From positions 1,658 through 42,720 of the forward strand of contig NZ_NHOA01000157.1 of NCBI RefSeq assembly GCF_002727125.1: 41,063 nucleotides of DNA. Reading direction: 5' to 3'. Position numbers and translations under genes: made by a program. Below the pieces are notes generated by a model. The model did no database searches, was not told where the DNA came from, and saw only the letters and a list, made by a program, of their open reading frames with translations. Shown piece after piece: positions 4,597 to 17,750 of the stretch. The DNA is from Halorubrum persicum. GTDB lineage: Archaea > Halobacteriota > Halobacteria > Halobacteriales > Haloferacaceae. Numbering within the stretch: position 1 is the stretch's first letter; each line of letters begins with the position of its first letter.

Positions 4597-4605
4597 TTTA
4601 TATAT
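4597..4605 (+). promoter_or_regulatory. TATA box of the upstream ORF and amt-PII transcript
   Basis: tttatatat at 4597-4605 is the strongest TATA box in the region. A start about 26 bases downstream falls at 4627-4630, that is on the GTG at 4628 and well before the transporter start at 4699. Confidence 0.65.
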
Positions 4606-4627: not shown

Positions 4628-4702
4628 GTGATTCAGAACATGAACACGGACGAAACGCGCTGTATGACGAACAAACGTTCACCCGAGGTGGTCGAGGCGT
4701 GA
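4628..4702 (+). CDS. Putative short upstream ORF overlapping the ammonium transporter start
   Basis: A 24-codon reading frame from GTG 4628 (or 20 codons from ATG 4640, [20 protein letters not shown]) ends with TGA at 4700-4702. The stop overlaps the transporter GTG at 4699 as GTGA, the arrangement used for translational coupling. The GTG at 4628 sits exactly where transcription is expected to start, which fits a leaderless first cistron. The frame of the transporter itself has no ATG or earlier usable start upstream, so the transporter probably depends on this leader cistron or on internal initiation. No homology is recognised, and so short a frame could be chance. Confidence 0.35.
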
Positions 4703-6417
4703 CGGCCGACGTACTCGCGACCGTCGACCCGAGCACGTTCGCGTCCGCGATGAACGGGACGTGGATCCTCGTCGTGACGTTCCTCATCTTCTTCATGCAC
4801 GCGGGCTTCGCCATGCTCGAAGCCGGGCAGGTCCGCTCGAAGAACGTCGCCAACCAGCTGACGAAGAACCTCCTGACGTGGAGTGTCGGGGTGACGGTGT
4901 TTTTCCTGATCGGAACGGCGTTCACCAGCGTGATGAGCGGCTCCGGCGGGCCCGTCTCGGCCGCCGGGTCGCTGTTTTCCGGCGGTGAACTCGCGGTCGA
5001 CGCCGGCGCGGTCGGCCCGTACGTCAACTGGCTGTACGGCGCCGTCTTCGCCATGACGGCCGCGACGATCGTCTCCGGCGCGGTCGCCGGCCGCGCGAAG
5101 CTCCGCGCGTACGTGACCTACACGTTCCTGCTCGCCGCCGTCATCTACCCGATGGTCATCGCGTTCACCTGGTCGGCCTCCGGCGACGGACTCGTCGCGC
5201 AGCTGACCGGTACCGCCTTCCACGACTTCGCGGGCGGGATGATCGTCCACGGGATGGGCGGCATCGCTGGTCTCACGGCAGCGGCCGTCCTCGGGCCGCG
5301 GATGGACCGCTACGCCGAGGACGGCTCGACGAACGTCATCCCCGGTCACTCGCTGACCTTCGCCGTCCTCGGGACGCTCGTTCTGGCGTTCGGCTGGTAC
5401 GGTTTCAACGTGGGTACGGCCTCGATCGTCAGCGGCGGCGTGTTCAACACGCTGACGCTCAACCTCGTCGCGATGGGGACGACCATCGCGATGGCGGCCG
5501 GCGGGATCGGCGCCGCCCTCGTCGTGTGGCTGAAGACCGGCAAGGTCGACACGCTCTACGTCGCCAACGGCCTGCTCGCCGGGCTGGTCGGTATCACCGC
5601 GATCCCGGACACCACGGCGTGGTGGGGGGCCCTGGTCGTCGGCGGGCTCGCCGGCGCGCAGCTCCCCATCGTCTTCGAGTTCGTCTCGGACACGCTCAAG
5701 ATCGACGACGTCTGTGCGGTGTTCCCGGTCCACGGCAGCGCGGGCGTCCTGGGGACGCTTCTGTTCCCCTTCGTCGCCGCGCCGGGCACCCTCAGCGCCG
5801 GCGTCGGGGCGCACTTCATCGCCCAGCTGACCGGGGTCGTCATCATCGGCGGCTGGACGCTCACTGCGACCGCGGCCGTCTGGTACGCCCTCAAGCTGAG
5901 CGGTGAGGCACGCGTCACGCAGGAACACGAACAGGAGGGTCTCGACATCTCCGAACACGGCGTCGAGACCTACCCCGAGTTCGGTGGCGACCGCGTCGCG
6001 ACCGACGGCGGCCCCTCCGTCATCGACACCACCGACGACTCCCCGCGTGCCGACGGCGGCGTGGAGGCCGGCACGGGGATCAAGATGGTTACGGCGGTCG
6101 TCCGCCCCGACAAGCTCGGGGCCATCAAGCAGGCGCTCGCGGAGATCAACGCGCCATCGCTCACGGTGACGAACGTCTCCGGCCGCGGCAGCCAGCCCGC
6201 GAAGACGGGCCAGTGGCGCGGCGAGGAGTTCACGGTCGACCTCCACCAGAAGGTGAAGATCGAGGTGGTCGTCGCGGACATCCCGGCGGACGAGGTGGCG
6301 GACGCGATCGCCGACGCCGCGAAGACCGGGGAGCCGGGCGACGGCAAGGTGTTCATCATGCCCGTGGAGGACGCGCTGCAGGTCCGCACGGGAACGACCG
6401 GTCCGGAGGCGGTGTAA
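4699..6417 (+). CDS. amt: Ammonium transporter (Amt) with fused C-terminal PII/GlnK domain
   Basis: Membrane ammonium channel of the Amt/MEP/Rh family carrying its own PII signalling domain. The Amt part (about residues 1-420) has about eleven hydrophobic segments and the family's key residues: Asp176 in FHDFAGG and the pore histidines His184 (VHGMGG) and His345 (PVHGSAG). After a polar linker (about 421-460) a complete PII domain runs from about 462 to 566: [20 protein letters not shown], the T-loop region [31 protein letters not shown], and [23 protein letters not shown]. The positions of the usual T-loop tyrosines hold Trp506 and Phe511, so the uridylylation tyrosine is missing. PII proteins normally are separate and block Amt when nitrogen is ample; here the gate is covalently attached. 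GTG 4699 is the only plausible start in frame. Confidence 0.94.
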
Positions 6418-8240: not shown

Positions 8241-8272
8241 TTGTTTACAACATCTAAAGCGATGAATTTAAG
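8241..8272 (+). promoter_or_regulatory. argG promoter with a palindromic TTGTTTACAA element
   Basis: aatttaag (8265-8272) is centred about 29 bases before the argG ATG at 8298 and is taken as the TATA box, so the mRNA is leaderless. Just upstream, TTGTTTACAA (8241-8250) has inverted TTGT/ACAA arms. Closely similar elements occur before lysW (11186-11195 and 11236-11245), which suggests a shared arginine operator. Confidence 0.5.
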
Positions 8273-8297
8273 GGGTATAGGCTACTCTACTCCGGTA

Positions 8298-9524
8298 ATG
8301 GCAACCGTTGCACTCGCGTTCAGTGGGGGACTCGACACGACAGTCTGCGTGCCGCTGTTGAAAGAGGAGTACGGCTACGACGAAGTCATCGGCGTTAACG
8401 TCGACGTCGGGCAGCCGACTGAGGAGTTCGACGAGGCCGAGGAGACCGCGGAGGCGCTCGGCCTCGACATCCACGTCGTCGACGCGAAAGCGGAGTTCGC
8501 GGACCTGTGTTACGACGCGGTGAAGGCGAACGCGACGTATCAGGGGTACCCGCTCGGCACCGCGCTCGCGCGTCCCGTCATCGCCGAGGCGATCCTCGGC
8601 GTCGCCGAGGAGGAGGGCTGCGACGCCATCGCACACGGCTGCACGGGGAAGGGGAACGACCAGCTCCGGTTCGAGGCCGTCTGGCGCGGCTCCGACCTCG
8701 AAGTGATCGCCCCCGTGCGTGAGCTCGGCCTCACCCGCGAGTGGGAGATCGACTACGCCGCGGAGAAGGACCTGCCCGTCGAGGCCGGCGACGGCGGCGT
8801 CTGGTCCATCGACGAGAACATCTGGTCGCGCGCGGTCGAGGGCGGCAAGCTGGAGGACCCGAACTACGAGCCGCCGGAGGACATCTACGAGTGGACCGCG
8901 GAGCCGGAGGGCGAGACCACGATCGAAGTGGCGTTCGAGGAGGGCGTCCCCGTCGCCGTCGACGGCGAGGCGATGGACCCGGTCCCGCTCATCCAGCACC
9001 TCAACGAGTACGCCGGCGGCTACGGCATCGGCCGCACCGACGTGATGGAGGACCGCATGCTCGGGCTGAAGGTGCGCGAGAACTACGAGCACCCGGCGGC
9101 CACCGTCCTCCTGACGGCCCACCAGGCGCTCGAGGACCTCGTCCTCACCAAGAACGAGCGCTCCTTCAAGAAGGGGATCGAGCAGGAGTGGTCGGAGAAG
9201 GCGTACCAGGGACTCGTCTTCGCCCCGGTCGTCGACGCGCTCGACGCGTTCATCGACGAGACGCAGGACGTGGTGACCGGCACCGCGACCGTGAAGGTCT
9301 CCGGCGGCAACTGCCGCGTCGTCGCCCGCGACTCCGAGTACGCGGTCTACTCCGAGGAGATGGCCTCGTTCAACACCGAGGACGTGGCCGGCATCGCGCA
9401 GGAGGACGCCACGGGCGTCGCGAAGTACCACGGGCTGCAGGAGCGCCTCGCCAACGACGTGAAGCAGTCGGTGTCGAAGCCCGAACTGGCGACGGACGGC
9501 TCCGGCGAGGCGGACGAGAAGTAG
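8298..9524 (+). CDS. argG: Argininosuccinate synthase
   Basis: Joins citrulline and aspartate with ATP to give argininosuccinate, the penultimate step of arginine synthesis. 408 residues from ATG 8298. The N-terminal ATP-pyrophosphatase P-loop is clear (ALAFSGGLDTTV, residues 6-17), and other family motifs include GCTGKGNDQLRFE, YAAEKDLPVEAG-type and VWSIDENIWSRAVEGGKLEDP, and GRTDVMEDRMLGLKVRENYEHP. The frame is open upstream to 8241, but MATVALAFSGG is the normal N-terminus and fits the TATA box. argH begins on the very next base after the stop, so the two are an operon. Confidence 0.97.
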   Translation: MATVALAFSGGLDTTVCVPLLKEEYGYDEVIGVNVDVGQPTEEFDEAEETAEALGLDIHVVDAKAEFADLCYDAVKANATYQGYPLGTALARPVIAEAILGVAEEEGCDAIAHGCTGKGNDQLRFEAVWRGSDLEVIAPVRELGLTREWEIDYAAEKDLPVEAGDGGVWSIDENIWSRAVEGGKLEDPNYEPPEDIYEWTAEPEGETTIEVAFEEGVPVAVDGEAMDPVPLIQHLNEYAGGYGIGRTDVMEDRMLGLKVRENYEHPAATVLLTAHQALEDLVLTKNERSFKKGIEQEWSEKAYQGLVFAPVVDALDAFIDETQDVVTGTATVKVSGGNCRVVARDSEYAVYSEEMASFNTEDVAGIAQEDATGVAKYHGLQERLANDVKQSVSKPELATDGSGEADEK

Positions 9525-11039
9525 ATGACCGACGACGATCCCCACCCGGTGGCCGACGACGCGGACGCGTCCGACGCGACGAGCGGAACGGCCGTCCGCC
9601 GCAACCGCTTCAGCGGCGGTCCCGCCCGCGAGTTCCTGTCGAGCCTCGCCGCCGACGCGGCGATCTTCGAGGCCGACCTCGCGGTCGATCGCGCGCACAC
9701 GGTGATGCTCGCCGAGCAGGGGATCGTCGACGACGAGACCGCCGGGGAGATACTCGCCGCCCTCGGCGACGTGGAGTCCGCGGGCCACGACGCCCTCCCC
9801 GACGGCGAGGACGTTCACGAGGCGATCGAGACGGCGGTCATCGACCGGATCGGCCCCGACGGCGGACGGATGCACACCGCCCGCTCGCGCAACGACGAGG
9901 TGGCGACCTGTATCCGGTACCGCCTGCGCGAGGACCTGCTCGCGGCGGCCGAGGCGACGGTGACGCTCCGCGAGGCGCTCGTCGACGCGGCGAGCGAGCA
10001 CACCGAGACCACGATGCCCGGCTACACGCACCTCCAGCCGGCCCAGCCGACGACGGTCGCGCACTACCTGCTCTCCTACGAGAGCGGGGTCGCCCGCGAC
10101 ACCGAGCGCCTGCTCGACGCGTACGACCGGGTCAACCGGTCGCCGCTCGGCGCGGCCGCGTTCGCGGGGACGCCGTTCGACGTCGACCGCGATCGGACCG
10201 CCGAGCTGCTTGGCTTCGGCGGGACGGTCCGGAACTCGACGGACGCGGCGTCGGCGCGCGACTTCCTCGCGGAGGGCGCGACCGCGTGCGCGACGCTCGC
10301 GACGACGCTGTCGGGGCTCGCGGAGGACCTCATCCTCTTCTCCAACAAGGGGTTCGTGGAGCTGTCGGACGCGTACTCCTCGACCTCCTCGATCATGCCC
10401 CAGAAGAAGAACCCCGACACGCTGGAGCTGACTCGCGGCGTCGCCGGCGACGCGATCGGTGAGGCGACGGGGACGCTGAGCCTCCTCAAGGGGCTCCCCC
10501 GCGCGTACAACCGCGACCTCCAGCGCGCCCACGCGAGCGTGTTCGAGATCGTCGACGACGTGCGCGAGGCGACCGAAGTCGCCGCGGGCGCGGTCGCGAC
10601 CGCCGGCTGGGACGAGACGACCCTCGCGGACGCGGCCGGCGAGGGGTTCTCGACGGCGACCGGCGTGGCCGACCTGCTCGCGATGGGCGGTATGCCGTTC
10701 CGGACCGCTCACGAGATCGTCGCGACCGCCGCCGAGAGCGTCTCCGACGACGACTCGCCCGCGGCCGCAGCCGCAAAAGTTGACGAGGCCACTCGAAACG
10801 TGACGGGCGAGCCCCTCTCGACGCACGTGAGCCGCGACGACGTGGAGTCCGCGCTCGATCCGGCCGCCAGCGTCGCGAGCCGCGACTCCGCCGGCGGACC
10901 CGCCCCCGACGCGGTCGCCGACGAGCTCGCGACCGCCGAGGCGGGGATCGAGGCCGACGCCGGGTCGCTCGCCGACGAGCGGGAGTCGCTCGCGGCGGCG
11001 GCGGCGCTGCTGGACGCGGAGGTGGAGTCGTATGCGTGA
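9525..11039 (+). CDS. argH: Argininosuccinate lyase
   Basis: Splits argininosuccinate into arginine and fumarate, the last step of the pathway. 504 residues, fumarase/aspartase superfamily. Motifs include RFSGGPAREFLSSLAAD near the N-terminus, HTARSRNDEVAT, TTMPGYTHLQPAQPTT, and the signature loop SSIMPQKKNPD near residue 288. The start codon directly follows the argG TAG, so translation is coupled. The C-terminal 60 residues are a long Ala/Asp-rich tail that reads as an ordinary haloarchaeal extension. Confidence 0.96.
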   Translation: MTDDDPHPVADDADASDATSGTAVRRNRFSGGPAREFLSSLAADAAIFEADLAVDRAHTVMLAEQGIVDDETAGEILAALGDVESAGHDALPDGEDVHEAIETAVIDRIGPDGGRMHTARSRNDEVATCIRYRLREDLLAAAEATVTLREALVDAASEHTETTMPGYTHLQPAQPTTVAHYLLSYESGVARDTERLLDAYDRVNRSPLGAAAFAGTPFDVDRDRTAELLGFGGTVRNSTDAASARDFLAEGATACATLATTLSGLAEDLILFSNKGFVELSDAYSSTSSIMPQKKNPDTLELTRGVAGDAIGEATGTLSLLKGLPRAYNRDLQRAHASVFEIVDDVREATEVAAGAVATAGWDETTLADAAGEGFSTATGVADLLAMGGMPFRTAHEIVATAAESVSDDDSPAAAAAKVDEATRNVTGEPLSTHVSRDDVESALDPAASVASRDSAGGPAPDAVADELATAEAGIEADAGSLADERESLAAAAALLDAEVESYA

Positions 11040-11156
11040 GCCGCCGGCCCCCGTTTCCGGACGGCGACCGCGACCGCCGCGCCGACCGGCGCCGTCGACG
11101 GTCGGGTCCCGACCGCCGACGACGCCGCCGTCCCCGCGAGGGGACACACTAACTAC

Positions 11157-11216
11157 TGAAATCTGACACCGGATTTCACACGGCGGTTGTACAACCGATT
11201 TTCGCCCGCTAGCGGG
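11157..11216 (+). promoter_or_regulatory. Array of three palindromes upstream of the lysW promoter
   Basis: Three inverted repeats follow one another within 60 bases: TGAAATC/GATTTCA (11157-11163 and 11172-11178, 8-base spacer), the perfect 14-mer CGGTTGTACAACCG (11184-11197), and the perfect 12-mer CCCGCTAGCGGG (11205-11216). A further imperfect element, CTGTTTTACAAG, lies at 11235-11246. They sit just upstream of the lysW TATA box and look like a multi-site operator; the first could also help end argH transcription. Confidence 0.5.
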
Positions 11217-11252
11217 TAGCTTATTTACTGTAATCTGTTTTACAAGTTCGAA

Positions 11253-11260
11253 GGGTTTAT
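11253..11260 (+). promoter_or_regulatory. TATA box of the lysW-argE operon
   Basis: gggtttat at 11253-11260, preceded by a purine-rich cgaa BRE-like stretch, lies about 32 bases before the ATG at 11289. The in-frame ATG at 11259 is part of this TATA box and therefore is not a usable start. Confidence 0.55.
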
Positions 11261-11288
11261 GCGGGTTCACGGTCGAGTAGGTGGTACG

Positions 11289-11477
11289 ATGACGAGCGAC
11301 ACTGATCCGGTGATGGCAGAGGACCCGATTACGGGCGAGGAGATCGAGCTTCCGGCCGATGTCGAGGTCGGTGAGATCATCGACAGCCCGGTCACCGGGA
11401 CCGAGCTGGAGGTCATCTCGCTGGACCCCGTCGTGTTGGAAGAGGCCCCCGAACTCGAGGAGGACTGGGGCGAGTAG
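11289..11477 (+). CDS. lysW: LysW-type amino-group carrier protein (ArgW) lacking the zinc cysteines
   Basis: Small acidic carrier whose C-terminal glutamate is linked to the amino group of glutamate (or aminoadipate), protecting it through the following steps. 62 residues from ATG 11289; an internal ATG at 11313 would give 54 residues, the usual length of LysW. The end is the family's invariant EDWGE, and ELEVISLDPVVLEEAPELEEDWGE is close to known LysW. The two CPxC zinc knuckles of LysW are replaced: Asp12-Pro-Ile-Thr15 and Ser33-Pro-Val-Thr36, so all four ligands are gone while the prolines and the glycine after each pair remain. It opens the operon and is followed by its ligase, lysX. Identity is secure from the tail and context; the loss of the cysteines is the odd point. 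Confidence 0.92.
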   Translation: MTSDTDPVMAEDPITGEEIELPADVEVGEIIDSPVTGTELEVISLDPVVLEEAPELEEDWGE

Positions 11478-11518
11478 ATGGCGACGACCGCCACGACCGC
11501 GACACGCGAGTGGTCGAC

Positions 11519-12445
11519 ATGCAAATAGGGATCCTCTACTCGCGGATCCGGAAAGACGAGAAGCTGCTGCTCGGTGAGCTCCGCGAGCGCGGCCACGAGG
11601 TCACCAAGATCGATGTCCGCAAGGAGCGGTTCGGGTTGGAGTCGACCACGGCCGACGTCGCCGACCTCGATCTGGTCGTCGACCGCTGCCTGTCGACCAG
11701 CCGCTCGCTGTACGCGACCGAGTTCCTCGACAGCTACGGCGTCCCGGTGGTGAACGCCCCCGAGACGGGCGACGTCTGCGCCGACAAGGCGAAGAACTCG
11801 CTCGCGCTCGCGGAGGCCGACATCCCCACCCCGGCGACGGAGGTCGCGTTCACCAAGGAGACCGCGATGGAGGCCATCGAGGAGTTCGGCTACCCCTGCG
11901 TGCTCAAGCCCGTCGTCGGCTCGTGGGGCCGGCTGATGGCGAAGATCGACACGCGGAGCGCCGCAGAGGCGATCTTAGAGCACAAGGAGACGCTCGGCCA
12001 CTACGAGCACAAGGTGTTCTACATCCAGGAGTTCGTCGATAAGCCCGGCCGCGACATCCGCGTGCTGGCGGTCGACGGCGAGCCGGTCGCCGCGATGACC
12101 CGGTCGTCAGACCACTGGCTCACGAACGCCGCGAAGGGCGGCGAGACCCAGTCGTTCGAGCTCGACGACCGCGCGCTGGAGCTGGTCGAGCGCGCGTCTG
12201 CGGCCGTCGGCGGCGGCATGCTCGGCGTCGACCTGATGGAGGTGGGAGTCGAGCCGGAAGCTGACACCGGGGAGACCGGCGGCGCCGGCTCCGGCGAGTA
12301 CACCGTCCACGAGGTGAACCACACGGTCGAGTTCAAGGCGCTGAACACCGCCACCGACGTCGACGTGCCCGCGAAGGTCGTCGACTGGCTGGAGGCGAAG
12401 GCGGCCGCGGCGGCCGGTGACGACGCCGCGGAGGCGCACACATGA
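11519..12445 (+). CDS. lysX: LysW-glutamate (aminoadipate) ligase, ATP-grasp
   Basis: RimK-related ATP-grasp enzyme that attaches the amino group of glutamate (ArgX activity) or aminoadipate (LysX activity) to the C-terminal glutamate of LysW. 308 residues from ATG 11519 (MQIGILYSRIRKDEK); a GTG at 11510 would add three. ATP-grasp signatures are KPVVGSWGRLMAKI, VFYIQEFVDKPGRDIRVLAVDG and the metal-binding EVNHTVEFK. An acidic insertion (residues about 243-257) sits before the last motif. The next genes and argF/argG/argH show that the pathway here makes ornithine and then arginine, so the expected substrate is glutamate. Haloarchaea are known to make lysine mainly through diaminopimelate, which supports this. 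Confidence 0.93.
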   Translation: MQIGILYSRIRKDEKLLLGELRERGHEVTKIDVRKERFGLESTTADVADLDLVVDRCLSTSRSLYATEFLDSYGVPVVNAPETGDVCADKAKNSLALAEADIPTPATEVAFTKETAMEAIEEFGYPCVLKPVVGSWGRLMAKIDTRSAAEAILEHKETLGHYEHKVFYIQEFVDKPGRDIRVLAVDGEPVAAMTRSSDHWLTNAAKGGETQSFELDDRALELVERASAAVGGGMLGVDLMEVGVEPEADTGETGGAGSGEYTVHEVNHTVEFKALNTATDVDVPAKVVDWLEAKAAAAAGDDAAEAHT

Positions 12446-13491
12446 CCGACGAGACGTACACCGCGAGCGTCGTCGGCGGCACCGGCTTCACCGGCGGCGA
12501 GCTGTTGCGGATCCTCTCTGGTCACCCCGAGTTCGAGGTCGTGCAGGCCACGTCGCGGTCGGCCGACAACATGACCGTCGGGCGCTCGCACCCGAACCTG
12601 CGCGGGCTCGACCTGCGCTTCTCCGACCCCGACGACCTCGAATCGGTCGACGTGCTGTTCTCGGCGACGCCTCACGGCGTCTCGATGGGCCGGATCGACG
12701 AGTACTTCGAGGCCGCCGACACGGTCGTCGACCTCTCGGCGGACTTCCGGCTGCCCGAGGCCGCGCTGTACGACGAGTGGTACGACGGCCACGAGTCGCC
12801 CGAGTACCTGGAGCGCGCGGAGTACGCGCTCCCCGAGCTCAACCGCGACAACCTCTCCGGCGCCGACCTGATCGCCGGCGGCGGCTGCAACGCGACCGCG
12901 ACGATCCTCGGGCTCAAGCCCCTCGTCGACGCGGGCGCGCTCGGTCCCGACGCGGGCGAGGTCGTCGTCGACGTGAAGGTGGGCTCCTCGGAGGGCGGCG
13001 CCGGCGGCGGCGCGGCCTCCTCGCACCCGGAGCGGTCGGGCGTCGTGCGCCCGTACGCGCCCACGAGCCACCGTCACGAGGCGGAGATAGAGGCGTACCT
13101 CGGGCTCGACGTCTCCTTCACCGTCCACGCGGTCGAGATGGTGCGCGGCGCGAGCGCGACCTGCCACGTCTTCCCCGACGAGCCCGTCTCGAAGGCGGAC
13201 CTCTGGCAGGCGTACCGCGGCGCCTACGCGGACGAGCCGTTCATGCGGATCGTCTCCGGCGGGGGCGGCGTCTACCGCTACCCCGAACCGAAGGCGGTCG
13301 CCGGCACCAACCACGGCGAGGTCGGCTTCGAGCTCGACCCCGGCAACCGCCGCATCGTCGTCTTCTCGGCGATAGACAACATGATGAAAGGCTCCGCCGG
13401 GCAGGCGGTCCACGCGGCGAACGTCGCACTCGAACTGCCAGAAGACGCCGGCTTGGAGTTTCAGGGGCTTCACCCCGTGGGATCGCCATGA
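12442..13491 (+). CDS. argC: [LysW]-glutamyl/aminoadipyl phosphate reductase
   Basis: NADPH-dependent reductase that turns the LysW-bound acyl phosphate into the semialdehyde. 349 residues. An N-terminal Rossmann motif (VVGGTGFTGGELLRILSGHP) precedes the catalytic Cys149 in IAGGGCNATATI, and GGAASSHPERSGVVRPYAPTSHRHEAE and KGSAGQAVHAAN are typical of the family. The start overlaps the lysX stop (ATGA), so the genes are translationally coupled. Because the substrate carries LysW, the enzyme differs from bacterial ArgC that uses N-acetylglutamyl phosphate. Confidence 0.95.
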   Translation: MTDETYTASVVGGTGFTGGELLRILSGHPEFEVVQATSRSADNMTVGRSHPNLRGLDLRFSDPDDLESVDVLFSATPHGVSMGRIDEYFEAADTVVDLSADFRLPEAALYDEWYDGHESPEYLERAEYALPELNRDNLSGADLIAGGGCNATATILGLKPLVDAGALGPDAGEVVVDVKVGSSEGGAGGGAASSHPERSGVVRPYAPTSHRHEAEIEAYLGLDVSFTVHAVEMVRGASATCHVFPDEPVSKADLWQAYRGAYADEPFMRIVSGGGGVYRYPEPKAVAGTNHGEVGFELDPGNRRIVVFSAIDNMMKGSAGQAVHAANVALELPEDAGLEFQGLHPVGSP

Positions 13492-14423
13492 CGGGCGAGC
13501 AGTCCCGTGCCGGCGGCACGCCCGCCGACGAACCCCCCGTCGTGGTCAAGATCGGCGGCGCGAAGGCGGTCGATCCGGCGGGCGCCGTCGGCGACGTGGC
13601 CCACCTCGCCGCCAACGGGCGGCGGGTCGTCGTCGTTCACGGCGGCTCGACCGTCGTGGACGAGGTCATCGAGCGGCTCGGCATGGAGCCCGAGTACGTC
13701 GAGTCCGCCTCCGGCGTCACGGGTCGGTTCACCGACGCGGAGACGATGGAGGCGTTCACGATGGCGATGGCCGGCAAGCTCAACACCGAGCTGACGGCGC
13801 AGTTCCGCGAGGCCGGCGTCGACGCGGTCGGCCTCTCCGGCGTCGACGGCGGGCTCCTCTCGGGGCCGCGCAAGTCGGCGGTCCGGGTCATCGAGGACGG
13901 GAAGAAGAAGATCCGCCGCGGCGAGCACTCCGGCCGGATCGAGTCGGTGAACGCCGACCTGCTCTCCGGCCTCCTCGCCGACGGCTACACGCCCGTCGCC
14001 TCGCCCCCGATGGAGGGGACGGAGAGCGACGGCGGCGTCACGCCCGTTAACGCCGACGCGGACCGGGCGGCCGCCGCGGTCGCGGGCGCGCTCGGCGCAG
14101 ATCTCGTCCTGCTCACGGACGTGGCCGGCGTGTACGCGGACCCCGACGACCCCGACACGCTGATCGAGTCGGCGGCGACGCCCGACGAACTGGCGACGGT
14201 CGAGAACGCCGCCGAGGGGTTCATGGGGAAGAAGGTGATGGCCGCGACGGAGGCGCTCTCCGGCGGCTCCGGGCGCGTCGTCGTCGCCGACGCCAACATC
14301 AACGATCCCATCGTCGCCGCGCTCGGCGGCGGCGGGACGACGATCGAGCGGTCGGCGCTCGGGGACGAGGCAGACGGCGACGCCGAGGAGGCGGACGCCG
14401 AAACCGGAGGTGAGACCGCATGA
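13488..14423 (+). CDS. argB: [LysW]-glutamate/aminoadipate kinase
   Basis: Amino-acid kinase family enzyme that phosphorylates the side-chain carboxylate of LysW-bound glutamate. 311 residues from ATG 13488, which overlaps the argC stop as ATGA. Motifs include VVKIGGAKA at the N-terminus, VVVVHGGSTVVDEV, ADLVLLTDVAGVYADP and GFMGKKVMAATEAL. A short acidic tail (GDEADGDAEEADAETGG) ends the protein. The frame is open far upstream but that part is shadow sequence in argC. Confidence 0.95.
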   Translation: MTGEQSRAGGTPADEPPVVVKIGGAKAVDPAGAVGDVAHLAANGRRVVVVHGGSTVVDEVIERLGMEPEYVESASGVTGRFTDAETMEAFTMAMAGKLNTELTAQFREAGVDAVGLSGVDGGLLSGPRKSAVRVIEDGKKKIRRGEHSGRIESVNADLLSGLLADGYTPVASPPMEGTESDGGVTPVNADADRAAAAVAGALGADLVLLTDVAGVYADPDDPDTLIESAATPDELATVENAAEGFMGKKVMAATEALSGGSGRVVVADANINDPIVAALGGGGTTIERSALGDEADGDAEEADAETGGETA

Positions 14424-15547
14424 GCGGGTTCGTCTTCTCCGAGAAGCCGATCGAGATCGCCTCGGGCGACGGCGTGACGCTCACCGACACGAACGGGACC
14501 GAGTACCTCGACTTCGGCGCGAGCTACGCCTGTACGCCCGTCGGCCACTGCCACCCCGAGGTCGTCGACGCCGCGACGAGTCAGATAGAGGAGCTCATGT
14601 ACGTGCAGGCGTCGTACCCGCACGCGGCGCGGACCGCGCTGTACGAGCAGCTCTCCGACGCCGGGCCGGGCGACGTGGACAACGTCTGGCTCTGTAACTC
14701 CGGCACCGAGGCCAACGAGGCCGCCCTGAAGTTCGCCCGGCACGCCACCGGTCGCGAGAAGATCGTCGCGACGGCGCAGGGGTTCCACGGTCGGACGATG
14801 GGCGCGCTCGCGACCACCTGGAAGGAGAAGTATAAGGACGGGTTCGAACCCCTCGCGGGCGGGGTCGAGTTCGTCGAGTACGGCGACGCCGACGCGATGC
14901 GCGAGGCGGTCGACGACGAGACCGCCGCGGTGATCCTCGAGCCCCTGCAGGGCGAGGGCGGGATCAACCCCGTCGCCACGGGGTATCTGCAGGCAGTCCG
15001 GGAGGCGACGGACGAAGCGGGCGCGGCGATGGTCCTCGACGAGATCCAGACCGGGCTCGGTCGCACCGGCTCGCTGTGGGCGGCCGAGCGCCACGACGTG
15101 GTGCCCGACGTGCTCACCACCGCGAAGGGGCTCGCCAGCGGGCTCCCGATCGGCGCGACGCTGTGTCGCGACTGGATCGCCGAGGACGCCGGCAACCACG
15201 GCTCGACGTTCTCCGGCGGGCCCGTCGTGTCGGCCGCGGCGGGGGCCACGCTCGACGTGATCGAGCGCGAGGACCTCGCCACGCACGCCGACGAGACGGG
15301 CGCGTACATCCGCGGGCAGATCGAGGAGCGCCTCGGCGACGACGTCCGCGACGTCCGCGGTGACGGCCTGATGATCGGCATCGAGGTGAAGCGCGGTTCG
15401 AACCGCCTGCTGCGGGACCTGGCGATCGAACACCAGGTGCTCGCGCTGCCGGCGGGCCGCACCGTGTTGCGTCTGCTCCCGCCGCTGACGATCGACCGCG
15501 AGCACGCCGACGCGGTCATCGACGCGATCGCGGAGGTGATCGGGTGA
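14420..15547 (+). CDS. argD: [LysW]-ornithine/lysine aminotransferase
   Basis: Class III PLP aminotransferase that converts the LysW-bound semialdehyde to LysW-ornithine, using glutamate as amino donor. 375 residues. Visible features are CNSGTEANEAALKFAR, FHGRTMGALATTWK, the PLP aspartate in MVLDEIQTGLGRTG and the PLP lysine Lys236 in TTAKGLASGLPIGA. The ATG overlaps the argB TGA, and the next gene starts inside or at the argD stop, so it is the middle of a tightly coupled operon. Confidence 0.95.
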   Translation: MSGFVFSEKPIEIASGDGVTLTDTNGTEYLDFGASYACTPVGHCHPEVVDAATSQIEELMYVQASYPHAARTALYEQLSDAGPGDVDNVWLCNSGTEANEAALKFARHATGREKIVATAQGFHGRTMGALATTWKEKYKDGFEPLAGGVEFVEYGDADAMREAVDDETAAVILEPLQGEGGINPVATGYLQAVREATDEAGAAMVLDEIQTGLGRTGSLWAAERHDVVPDVLTTAKGLASGLPIGATLCRDWIAEDAGNHGSTFSGGPVVSAAAGATLDVIEREDLATHADETGAYIRGQIEERLGDDVRDVRGDGLMIGIEVKRGSNRLLRDLAIEHQVLALPAGRTVLRLLPPLTIDREHADAVIDAIAEVIG

Positions 15548-16722
15548 TGTCGACCGGGAAGGAGCGCGACGCCGCCGACGCGGACGATCCGGTGACCGAG
15601 TCGGACGCGGACGAGTCGTCGGCGGCCGGGACCGACGTGGTCGCGGGCGGCGGCTACCCCGAGGCCTGCGACACGCCGGCTCGGAAGCTGCTGTACGACA
15701 TGGTCTCTATCCCCTCGCCGTCGGGCGAGGAGGAGCAGGCGGCGAAGCGCCTCGTCGACTTCTTCGAGGCCAACGGCCGGGCGGCGCGGATCGACGAGGC
15801 CGGCAACGTCCGCGCGCCCGCCAGCGACGCGGTCCTGCTGACCTCGCACATCGACACCGTTCCCGGCGACATCCCGGTCGAGGTGAAGCCGGCGGCCGAG
15901 GACGGCGCGGTCGGCGAGCCGGGCGAGCCAGTGCTCTGGGGGCGCGGGAGCGTGGACGCCACCGGGCCGCTCGTCGCGATGGCGGTCGCGGCGGTGAAGA
16001 CGGGGGTCTCGTTCGTCGGCGTCGCCGGCGAGGAGACGAACTCTCGGGGCGCCCGGTTCCTCGTCGAGGACCGCGACGCGCCCGAGGCGGTGGTGAACGG
16101 CGAACCCTCCGGCTGGGACGGCGTCACCCTCGGCTACCGCGGGTTCCTCGCGGGCACGTACGTGAACACGAGCGAGTCCGGACACACCTCGCGTCCGGAG
16201 CCGAACGCGATCCAGCACGCGATCGACTGGTGGCACGGCGTCGAGGAGGCGTTCGACCCCACCGACGACGACACGCCCGTCTTCGAACAGGTGACGACCA
16301 AGCCCGTCTCGGTCGACGGCGGGCTCACCGACGACGGGCTCGCCGTCGAGGCGACGATGGACGTGCAGCTCCGCGTCCCGCCCAACCGGACGGTCGACGA
16401 GATCCACGAGCTGGCCGAGACGGAGCTGTCGACCGGCTCGGTCCACTGGAAGGAGCCCATCCCGCCGGTGATGGAGAGCCCGCGGACGGAGCTGGCGCGG
16501 GCGTTCCGGGTCGCGATCCGGGGCGCCGGCGGCGACGTTCGGCTGCTGCGCAAGACCGGCACGAGCGACATGAACCTGTTCGCGGCCGCGTGGGACTGCC
16601 CGATGGTCACCTACGGCCCCGGGAACTCGGACCTCGACCACGCGCCCGACGAGCGGCTCCCCCTCTCGGAGTTGGACCGCGCGACGACGGTGTTGAGCGA
16701 CGTCTGCCGGGACCGACCGTAG
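15547..16722 (+). CDS. argE: [LysW]-ornithine/lysine hydrolase (M20 family)
   Basis: Metallopeptidase that releases ornithine from LysW, regenerating the carrier. 391 residues from ATG 15547; a GTG at 15544 would overlap the argD stop as GTGA and add one residue. Metal and catalytic motifs are LLTSHIDTVPGD, the aspartate in GRGSVDATGPL, the adjacent glutamates in VAGEETNSRGARF, VVNGEPSGWD, and a C-terminal KTGTSDMNLF. The first 35 or so residues are a Asp/Glu-rich extension ahead of the peptidase fold. As it sits with the other arg genes, ornithine release is the likely job (ArgE/LysK). Confidence 0.92.
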   Translation: MSTGKERDAADADDPVTESDADESSAAGTDVVAGGGYPEACDTPARKLLYDMVSIPSPSGEEEQAAKRLVDFFEANGRAARIDEAGNVRAPASDAVLLTSHIDTVPGDIPVEVKPAAEDGAVGEPGEPVLWGRGSVDATGPLVAMAVAAVKTGVSFVGVAGEETNSRGARFLVEDRDAPEAVVNGEPSGWDGVTLGYRGFLAGTYVNTSESGHTSRPEPNAIQHAIDWWHGVEEAFDPTDDDTPVFEQVTTKPVSVDGGLTDDGLAVEATMDVQLRVPPNRTVDEIHELAETELSTGSVHWKEPIPPVMESPRTELARAFRVAIRGAGGDVRLLRKTGTSDMNLFAAAWDCPMVTYGPGNSDLDHAPDERLPLSELDRATTVLSDVCRDRP

Positions 16723-16850
16723 GCGTCACGGCACCGCCCGTGGCGCCGGCTCCTTTTGACCCGCCTCGCGTCGCTTCCGACGATTGACCGCACCGCGGTC
16801 ACGACCCAAGACCACCGACACCATCTCGACTCTACACACACCACTTACCC

Positions 16851-17750
16851 ATGCCACTCGCCACCGACGACTTCCTCGACATCGACGACGTGACGCCAGT
16901 CGAACTGGACGCCCTGCTCGACCGCGCCGCCGCGATGAAGGCGGGCGAGACCGACCCCCGACTCGGAGATTCGACGCTCGGAATGATCTTCGAGAAACCC
17001 TCGACGCGCACCCGCGTCTCCTTCGAGACGGGGATGACCCGACTGGGCGGTCACGCGATGTTCCTCGGGCCCGACGACATCCAACTGGGCCACGGCGAGC
17101 CGCTGCGCGACACCGCTCGCGTGCTCGGTCGGTACGTCGACGGGGTGATGGCGCGGCTGTTCGATCACGACGACGTCGAGACGCTCGCCGAGTACGCCGA
17201 CTGCCCCGTGATCAACGGGCTCACCGACGAGGCGCACCCCTGCCAGACGCTGGCCGACCTCCTGACGATCCGCGAGACGGTCGGCGAGGACGCCACGGTC
17301 GCGTGGGTCGGCGACGGCAACAACGTCGGGCAGTCGTTCGTCGTCGGCGCGGCGATGGCCGGGATCGACGTCGAGGTCGCCACCCCCGCCGACTACGGTA
17401 TGAATCCCGCCGTCTTCGATCGCGCCGCGGCGTTCGGCGCCGACGTGACCCCGACGACCGATCCCGAGGCCGCGATCGACGGCGCCGACATCGTCTACAC
17501 CGACGTGTGGATCTCGATGGGGCAGGAGGACGAACGCGAGGAGAAGCTCGCCGCCTTCGACGGGTTCCAGGTGAACGCTGACCTGCTCGCCGGCACCGAC
17601 GCGAAGGTGATGCACTGTCTACCCGCACATCGCGGCGAGGAGGTCACGAACGACGTGCTCGAATCCGACCGCGCGCTCGTCTGGGACCAGGCCGAAAACC
17701 GGATGCACGCGCAGAACGCGCTGCTCGTCGAGCTGCTCGGCGGGGAGTGA
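16851..17750 (+). CDS. argF: Ornithine carbamoyltransferase
   Basis: Makes citrulline from ornithine and carbamoyl phosphate. 299 residues. The carbamoyl-phosphate loop STRTR is at residues 51-55 (KPSTRTRVSFETGM), HPCQ at 129-132 (EAHPCQTLADLLTIRE), and the ornithine-binding HCLPAHRGEEV begins at 255. It follows argE after 128 untranslated bases, so it may have its own promoter or be read through; the gap contains a TATA-like ccttttg near 16751-16757 but it is too far from the ATG for a leaderless start. Together with argG-argH it completes arginine synthesis. Confidence 0.96.
   Translation: MPLATDDFLDIDDVTPVELDALLDRAAAMKAGETDPRLGDSTLGMIFEKPSTRTRVSFETGMTRLGGHAMFLGPDDIQLGHGEPLRDTARVLGRYVDGVMARLFDHDDVETLAEYADCPVINGLTDEAHPCQTLADLLTIRETVGEDATVAWVGDGNNVGQSFVVGAAMAGIDVEVATPADYGMNPAVFDRAAAFGADVTPTTDPEAAIDGADIVYTDVWISMGQEDEREEKLAAFDGFQVNADLLAGTDAKVMHCLPAHRGEEVTNDVLESDRALVWDQAENRMHAQNALLVELLGGE

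Follow-up and report, generated by a model that had tools for sequence, protein, structure and literature searches.

The plugging of Amt channels by PII regulators is textbook channel gating, studied as an interaction of two separate proteins. In a 41,063-nucleotide stretch of the Halorubrum persicum genome, which we call the window, channel and regulator are encoded by a single gene, and the locus therefore raises the question of how a channel would be controlled when it carries its own regulator, and whether such an arrangement is an oddity of one genome. Here we address whether the fusion is real, which of its residues bear on control, how widely it is found, and how it has evolved within the genus. 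A natural single-chain Amt-PII protein fixes the stoichiometry of the two partners and makes ligand-only gating directly testable.

The gene is one unbroken open reading frame (Table 1), and its Pfam content consists of two domains only. Ammonium_transp matches residues 22-425 (E 4e-95; 319 bits against a cut-off of 23.2; profile positions 2-399 of 399) and P-II matches residues 462-565 (E 1.2e-26; 93.4 bits against a cut-off of 25; profile positions 2-101 of 102)—both are far above cut-off and full length. The H. persicum genome (3.58 Mb in 158 contigs, 97.65% complete) contains a single Amt and a single PII, each of them within this protein. Sequencing error or frameshift can be ruled out, as the full-length fusion is found in 51 of 52 Halorubrum genomes, the sole exception being a draft that is 92% complete. 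An earlier sequence-only reading of the window had claimed an Amt channel joined to a complete PII domain in one protein, had named a stop or frameshift between the domains on resequencing as a refutation, and had placed Trp506 and Phe511 where GlnK has Tyr46 and Tyr51; the domains and the single open frame agree with the first, the congeneric genomes speak against the second, and alignment places the two residues exactly so. The two halves are joined by an acidic linker, which in other fusions spans 20-73 residues (median 32).

Table 1. Features of the Amt-PII fusion locus, in positions of the window.
Feature	Position	Strand	Basis
Putative TATA-like stretch TTTATATAT upstream of the gene	4597..4605	+	read from sequence
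Upstream ORF, 20 codons, stop overlapping the GTG start (GTGA)	4640..4702	+	intact in 46/47 A/B loci
Shine-Dalgarno-like GAGGTGG before the GTG start	4685..4691	+	sequence and conservation in genus
amt::PII gene for the 572-aa fusion, from GTG to TAA	4699..6417	+	ORF, Pfam, homologues in 51/52 genomes
Amt half, residues 1-428, 11 TM helices and C-terminal region, allele type A, exchanged part	4699..5982	+	Pfam, AF2, allele analysis
Cytoplasmic Amt tail, residues 401-428, ends YPEF, conserved	5899..5982	+	invariant alignment columns, breakpoints
Acidic linker, residues 429-460, predicted disordered	5983..6078	+	fusion comparison, AF2
PII half, residues 461-572	6079..6414	+	Pfam, genus-wide identity
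T-loop, residues 496-516, flexible: Gln499 (Q39), Trp506 (46), Arg507 (R47), Phe511 (51)	6184..6246	+	alignment, AF2
TTC codon for Phe511, Tyr51 position	6229..6231	+	sequence, alignment

The residues expected of a working channel and a working regulator are retained. Across 46 fused proteins the Amt half is invariant at the twin histidines (His184 and His345), at Asp176 (Asp160), at Phe117 and Phe236 of the Phe gate, at Trp158 of the external site, and in much of the cytoplasmic tail through YPEF. In the PII half the invariant residues are Gln499 (Q39), Arg507 (R47), Lys520 (K58), the GDGK of the B-loop (547-550), and Arg563 (R103); R47, the counterpart of Arg507, is the pore plug in E. coli GlnK. 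The nucleotide site has Gln561 in place of the usual Arg101, as does GlnK2 of Haloferax mediterranei (4ozj). An AF2 model shows an Amt of 11 helices together with a PII fold (mean pLDDT 74, pTM 0.67), with pLDDT below 50 only in loops, in the tail and linker (415-448), and in the T-loop; the model is of the monomer, so insertion of the T-loop into the pore lies outside it.

The nearest Amt halves in the PDB are sensor Amts, Ks-Amt5 (6eu6) and Sd-Amt1 (8qj3), which lead by fold—AmtB and the AmtB-GlnK complexes (2ns1, 2nuu) come next—and by sequence (E 9e-52, against 2e-31 for AmtB). Since Ks-Amt5 bears a C-terminal signalling domain (PMC5764959), these matches could suggest that the fusion is an ammonium receptor and not a regulated channel, with the Amt half binding external ammonium and altering the state of the PII half. 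We consider this unlikely: the fusion is the genome's only Amt, just one of the three Ks-Amt5 pore blockers (F27, Y30, and F34; PMC5764959) is matched (F37, L40, and Q44 here, with L40 and Q44 invariant in fused haloarchaeal proteins), and both the AmtB-like tail and the Arg47 of the PII-gated complex are invariant. Ks-Amt5 likewise joins an Amt to a cytoplasmic signalling domain; however, the output of Ks-Amt5 is a histidine kinase, and Pfam finds no kinase or other enzymatic output domain in the fusion.

In the T-loop, the closest solved PII, Hfx. mediterranei GlnK2 (4ozj), has QWRGEEYTV where the fusion has QWRGEEFTV; in that species AmtB1/2 and GlnK1/2 are encoded by separate genes and Tyr51 is present. 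Trp46 and Phe51 occur together in all Halorubrum fusions sampled. Elsewhere in the haloarchaea, our whole-genome survey finds Trp46 in all PIIs, fused and free, except for one with Tyr, and Tyr51 in every PII, fused or free; among named genomes, two metagenome-assembled genomes (MAGs) from soda lakes (L238 and L242) have Phe51, both in fusions, and no free PII among those sampled has it. Trp46 as a derived loss is ruled out by its near-universal presence in haloarchaeal PIIs, Phe51 as a result of fusion is ruled out by the other fusions that have Tyr51, and Phe51 is nearly, but because of the two MAGs not strictly, confined to Halorubrum.

The sequence-only reading had described the usual tyrosines as absent and had tied their loss to the fusion. 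Both residues do differ; however, Trp46 is the haloarchaeal norm and only Phe51 is unusual, and the tie to fusion fails, as the fusions sampled outside the genus in the whole-genome survey share the architecture and linker class and keep Tyr51. Its argument against control by uridylylation of Tyr51 fared better: position 51 is Phe511, and the GlnD domain PF08335 is found neither in the H. persicum genome nor in a Haloferax volcanii control, although PMC3831643, citing Pedro-Roig 2013a, reports PII of Hfx. mediterranei as uridylylated at Tyr51. On sequence grounds, control by modification of Tyr51 is excluded here; this is a trait of the genus and does not come with fusion as such. Since Tyr51 does not define the PII family, Phe511 excludes membership of the uridylylated class only.

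E. coli AmtB-GlnK (2ns1, 2nuu) and the fusion share a 1:1 ratio of Amt to PII, a twin-His pore, and a conserved tail, and the Arg47 T-loop, Gln39, Lys58, and GDGK are retained here; in contrast, the E. coli system is two proteins and the fusion one, and the Tyr51 that GlnD uridylylates in E. coli is Phe51 in a protein whose genome lacks a GlnD domain. With a 1:1 tether, no Tyr51, no PF08335, and conserved ligand and plug residues, ligand control in the absence of covalent modification is a reasonable expectation, and the fusion is likely a ligand-controlled, self-gated channel. A trimeric Amt channel would have a PII trimer of its own, attached by acidic tethers that are flexible; nitrogen sufficiency would be signalled by ADP/ATP with low 2-oxoglutarate, upon which three T-loops, through Arg47, would close off the pores of the trimer to which they are tethered; ATP with 2-oxoglutarate would then pull the T-loops out, with no covalent change at position 51. 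The gating and its ligands are the part of this explanation that we infer. A related observation comes from Hfx. mediterranei, where GlnK binds AmtB after ammonium shock (PMC3831643). We judge it somewhat probable that the whole proposal is right—a self-plugging, ligand-gated Amt-PII trimer whose Amt half is, in addition, an interchangeable allelic module.

The tether may instead serve to bring glutamine synthetase (GS) to the membrane via the T-loop, coupling ammonium entry to assimilation and leaving gating secondary. In Halorubrum no free PII is left for GS or other targets, and H. persicum itself has none to serve GS; GlnK activates GS in Hfx. mediterranei, according to a citation in PMC3831643, and in Methanosarcina mazei it acts as a glue for GS (PMC10651883); and Amt (Hlac_2623) and GS rose together in biofilms of Halorubrum lacusprofundi (PMC5118699). 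However, M. mazei GlnK1 binds GS with a T-loop of different sequence, and nitrogen limitation alone would be expected to raise Amt and GS together. Such a role is improbable as the main function of the tether, in our estimate, and we retain self-gating as the preferred reading.

Fusion of this kind is common and recurrent in haloarchaea. A class-wide search finds PII in 373 of 391 haloarchaeal genomes; many of the matches listed are frames of 550-640 aa, from at least seven haloarchaeal families, and most others are 110-200 aa. Among the 185 PIIs whose loci were fetched, a sample weighted toward Halorubrum, 109 are fused, 75 lie behind an Amt gene, and one stands alone; most non-fused PIIs begin 4-33 nt after the Amt stop. 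Every one of the 43 named haloarchaeal loci that the genome collection yielded (L204-L246) is a fusion. Restriction of the fusion to one genome or genus is thereby ruled out, and the idea that it is exceptional finds no support. In the rest of the phylum, the PII matches listed include no fusion (the longest frame is 343 aa), and the bacterial PII matches seen, from beyond the scope of the survey, are free PIIs. Our search of the literature, which covered open-access papers and not subscription ones, found no account of Amt-PII fusions and likewise no description of Amt allelic exchange; the component families are known ones, and of the two findings the allelic module surprises more.

The label fused or adjacent changes 10 times on a tree of 100 Amt halves, with at least seven changes forced by well-supported branches; fusion or fission has therefore recurred. 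Such turnover, and the tight operons of the neighbours, would fit a fusion of no functional consequence, made when a tight amt-glnK operon lost a stop codon, PII being released all the same by internal initiation or cleavage—Met463 lies near the PII start. We find this very unlikely, because dozens of species keep the linker open and similar in length, some have another residue in place of Met463 (e.g., Leu in L108), and the genus is fixed for the fusion, the H. persicum genome having no free copy. Some loci are of interest in themselves. The fusion at L143 (G121) has an Amt from a different subfamily and a long linker built of TDGGE-like repeats, and likely arose independently; L016, L024, L081, and L133 have a fused PII plus a separate free PII close by, and the two might form mixed trimers.

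Within Halorubrum, the two halves of the gene have different histories. Protein identity to the H. persicum fusion is bimodal in the genus (92-96%, or mostly 67-75%); whichever Amt allele is present, PII halves in the genus are 87-99% identical. By identity of the Amt half to that of H. persicum, we distinguish type A, to which H. persicum belongs (92-97%; 17 genomes), type B (about 60-65%; 30 genomes), type C (76%; one genome), and type D (59%; two genomes). All four occupy one locus, radA - amt::PII - hemL, in which RadA is 92-99% and HemL 86-97% identical. Types A and B are 62% identical in Amt, compared with about 95% in PII and the flanking genes; for H. persicum against the B-type genomes G363 and G343 the values are 62% (Amt), 99% (PII), and about 95-98% (flanks). 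At the DNA level, the same comparison gives about 95% over most of radA, 50-84% over Amt, about 95% over PII, and 87-96% over hemL. Divergence between A and B begins at the start codon, within the first codons, and ends in the tail or linker (+1260 to +1395), and the upstream 180 bases are common to most A/B pairs examined (about 80-98%). Downstream of hemL (8241-17750, + strand) lies an arginine biosynthesis cluster, with a semialdehyde dehydrogenase, class-III aminotransferase, M20 peptidase, and ornithine carbamoyltransferase by Pfam, and argininosuccinate synthase and lyase by sequence reading. Its genes are 90-98% identical in the closest pairs, with no comparable A/B split; a TatC-like gene and another gene farther downstream are less conserved, in both types alike.

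Paralogues in place of alleles are ruled out by the single Amt at one locus per genome, with one exception. This is MAG G393 (A07HR67; L109/L201), where a Phe51 fusion with a type C Amt is accompanied by a second copy—an Amt fragment followed by a free Tyr51 PII, beside a second hemL—which is possibly a foreign copy or an assembly mixture. Type D is found in Hrr. vacuolatum and Hrr. alkaliphilum, which are alkaliphiles. The two soda-lake MAGs with Phe51 (Natronomonas sp., Haloarculaceae) have D-like Amt halves as these two species do, a pattern for which exchange across families is possible.

Two clades do not account for the bimodal identity, as type follows neither the flank tree nor the tree of EF-2. 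With one genome per species, type requires 15 changes on the flank tree and 16 on the PII tree, compared with three on the Amt tree; on the independent EF-2 tree it requires 19, against a mean of 17 for shuffled labels (resolution of the EF-2 and flank trees is only partial). Type A as a single clade is rejected by EF-2 (p 4e-7), the flanks (p 6e-27), and PII (p 0.011). Third-position divergence is equal for AA, BB, and AB pairs in radA (0.19), PII (0.18), hemL (0.22), and EF-2 (0.13); the Amt values are 0.21 inside either type and 0.34 between the two, with amino-acid differences of 0.06-0.10 within types against 0.34 between. Within types A and B, Amt and EF-2 distances are correlated (rho 0.67 and 0.55, respectively; 0/500 permutations). 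Each of these two types is as diverse as the genus and tracks EF-2, and both have therefore persisted for long. Type A falls with genus g11, type D with g8, and type B with g3/g20; the alleles therefore cross genera.

Taken from sequence comparison, these results show the Amt half behaving as an allelic module, whose versions replace each other at the same locus by homologous recombination while the recipient keeps its own promoter, linker, and PII half. Free recombination is documented in Halorubrum (PMC3990103) and provides the means of exchange. By the same comparison, the age of A and of B is roughly that of the genus, and species have repeatedly traded them as whole units. The locus has two deeply diverged alleles that species share against the phylogeny; the transporter module thus shows a trans-species dimorphism of ancient date, while the regulator joined to it is common to both forms.

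The exchange also reveals which surface of the channel has been kept, and supplies a natural set of chimaeras. With loop limits set by eye, identity between A and B is 86% in the inner loops and tail, 69% in the helices, and 33% in the outer loops. The kept surface is the cytoplasmic face, which would dock PII, and we infer that it is conserved so that any Amt version works with the same PII. Outer loops diverge about twice as fast as helices, within and between types, and no extra diversification of outer loops is found between A and B relative to that within them; the excess between types being no greater than that within, diversifying selection is unsupported.

Types A, C, and D may have entered from other genera by chance and been spread by recombination, which is generally high in haloarchaea, leaving a dimorphism with no selective cause; this is an evenly balanced prospect, favoured by the free recombination of the genus (PMC3990103), by the groupings with g11, g8, and g3/g20, and by the unexceptional divergence of the outer loops. 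It fits less well with A and B being each as diverse as the genus and tracking EF-2, or with genes through the arginine cluster showing no comparable split. More tentatively, two or more ancient Amt versions may have been kept as modules before one PII, passed on by recombination and held by selection; candidate agents would be, for example, viruses exploiting the outer loops, or differences in ammonium or pH regime, to which the presence of type D in Hrr. vacuolatum and Hrr. alkaliphilum may be relevant. If selection does hold the modules, archaea would have in this locus a counterpart to long-lived balanced polymorphism, limited to half a gene. With so deep a split confined to half a gene, and with alleles whose age matches that of the genus, the causes of lasting allelic diversity in archaea would become testable.

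The region upstream of the gene has one further feature, a short conserved open reading frame that runs into the start codon of the fusion (Table 1). Across the A/B loci the other frames are mostly closed, and no excess of the third-position signature of translation is found in it. This upstream frame is a possible leader peptide, or a possible means of coupling to the gene that follows.
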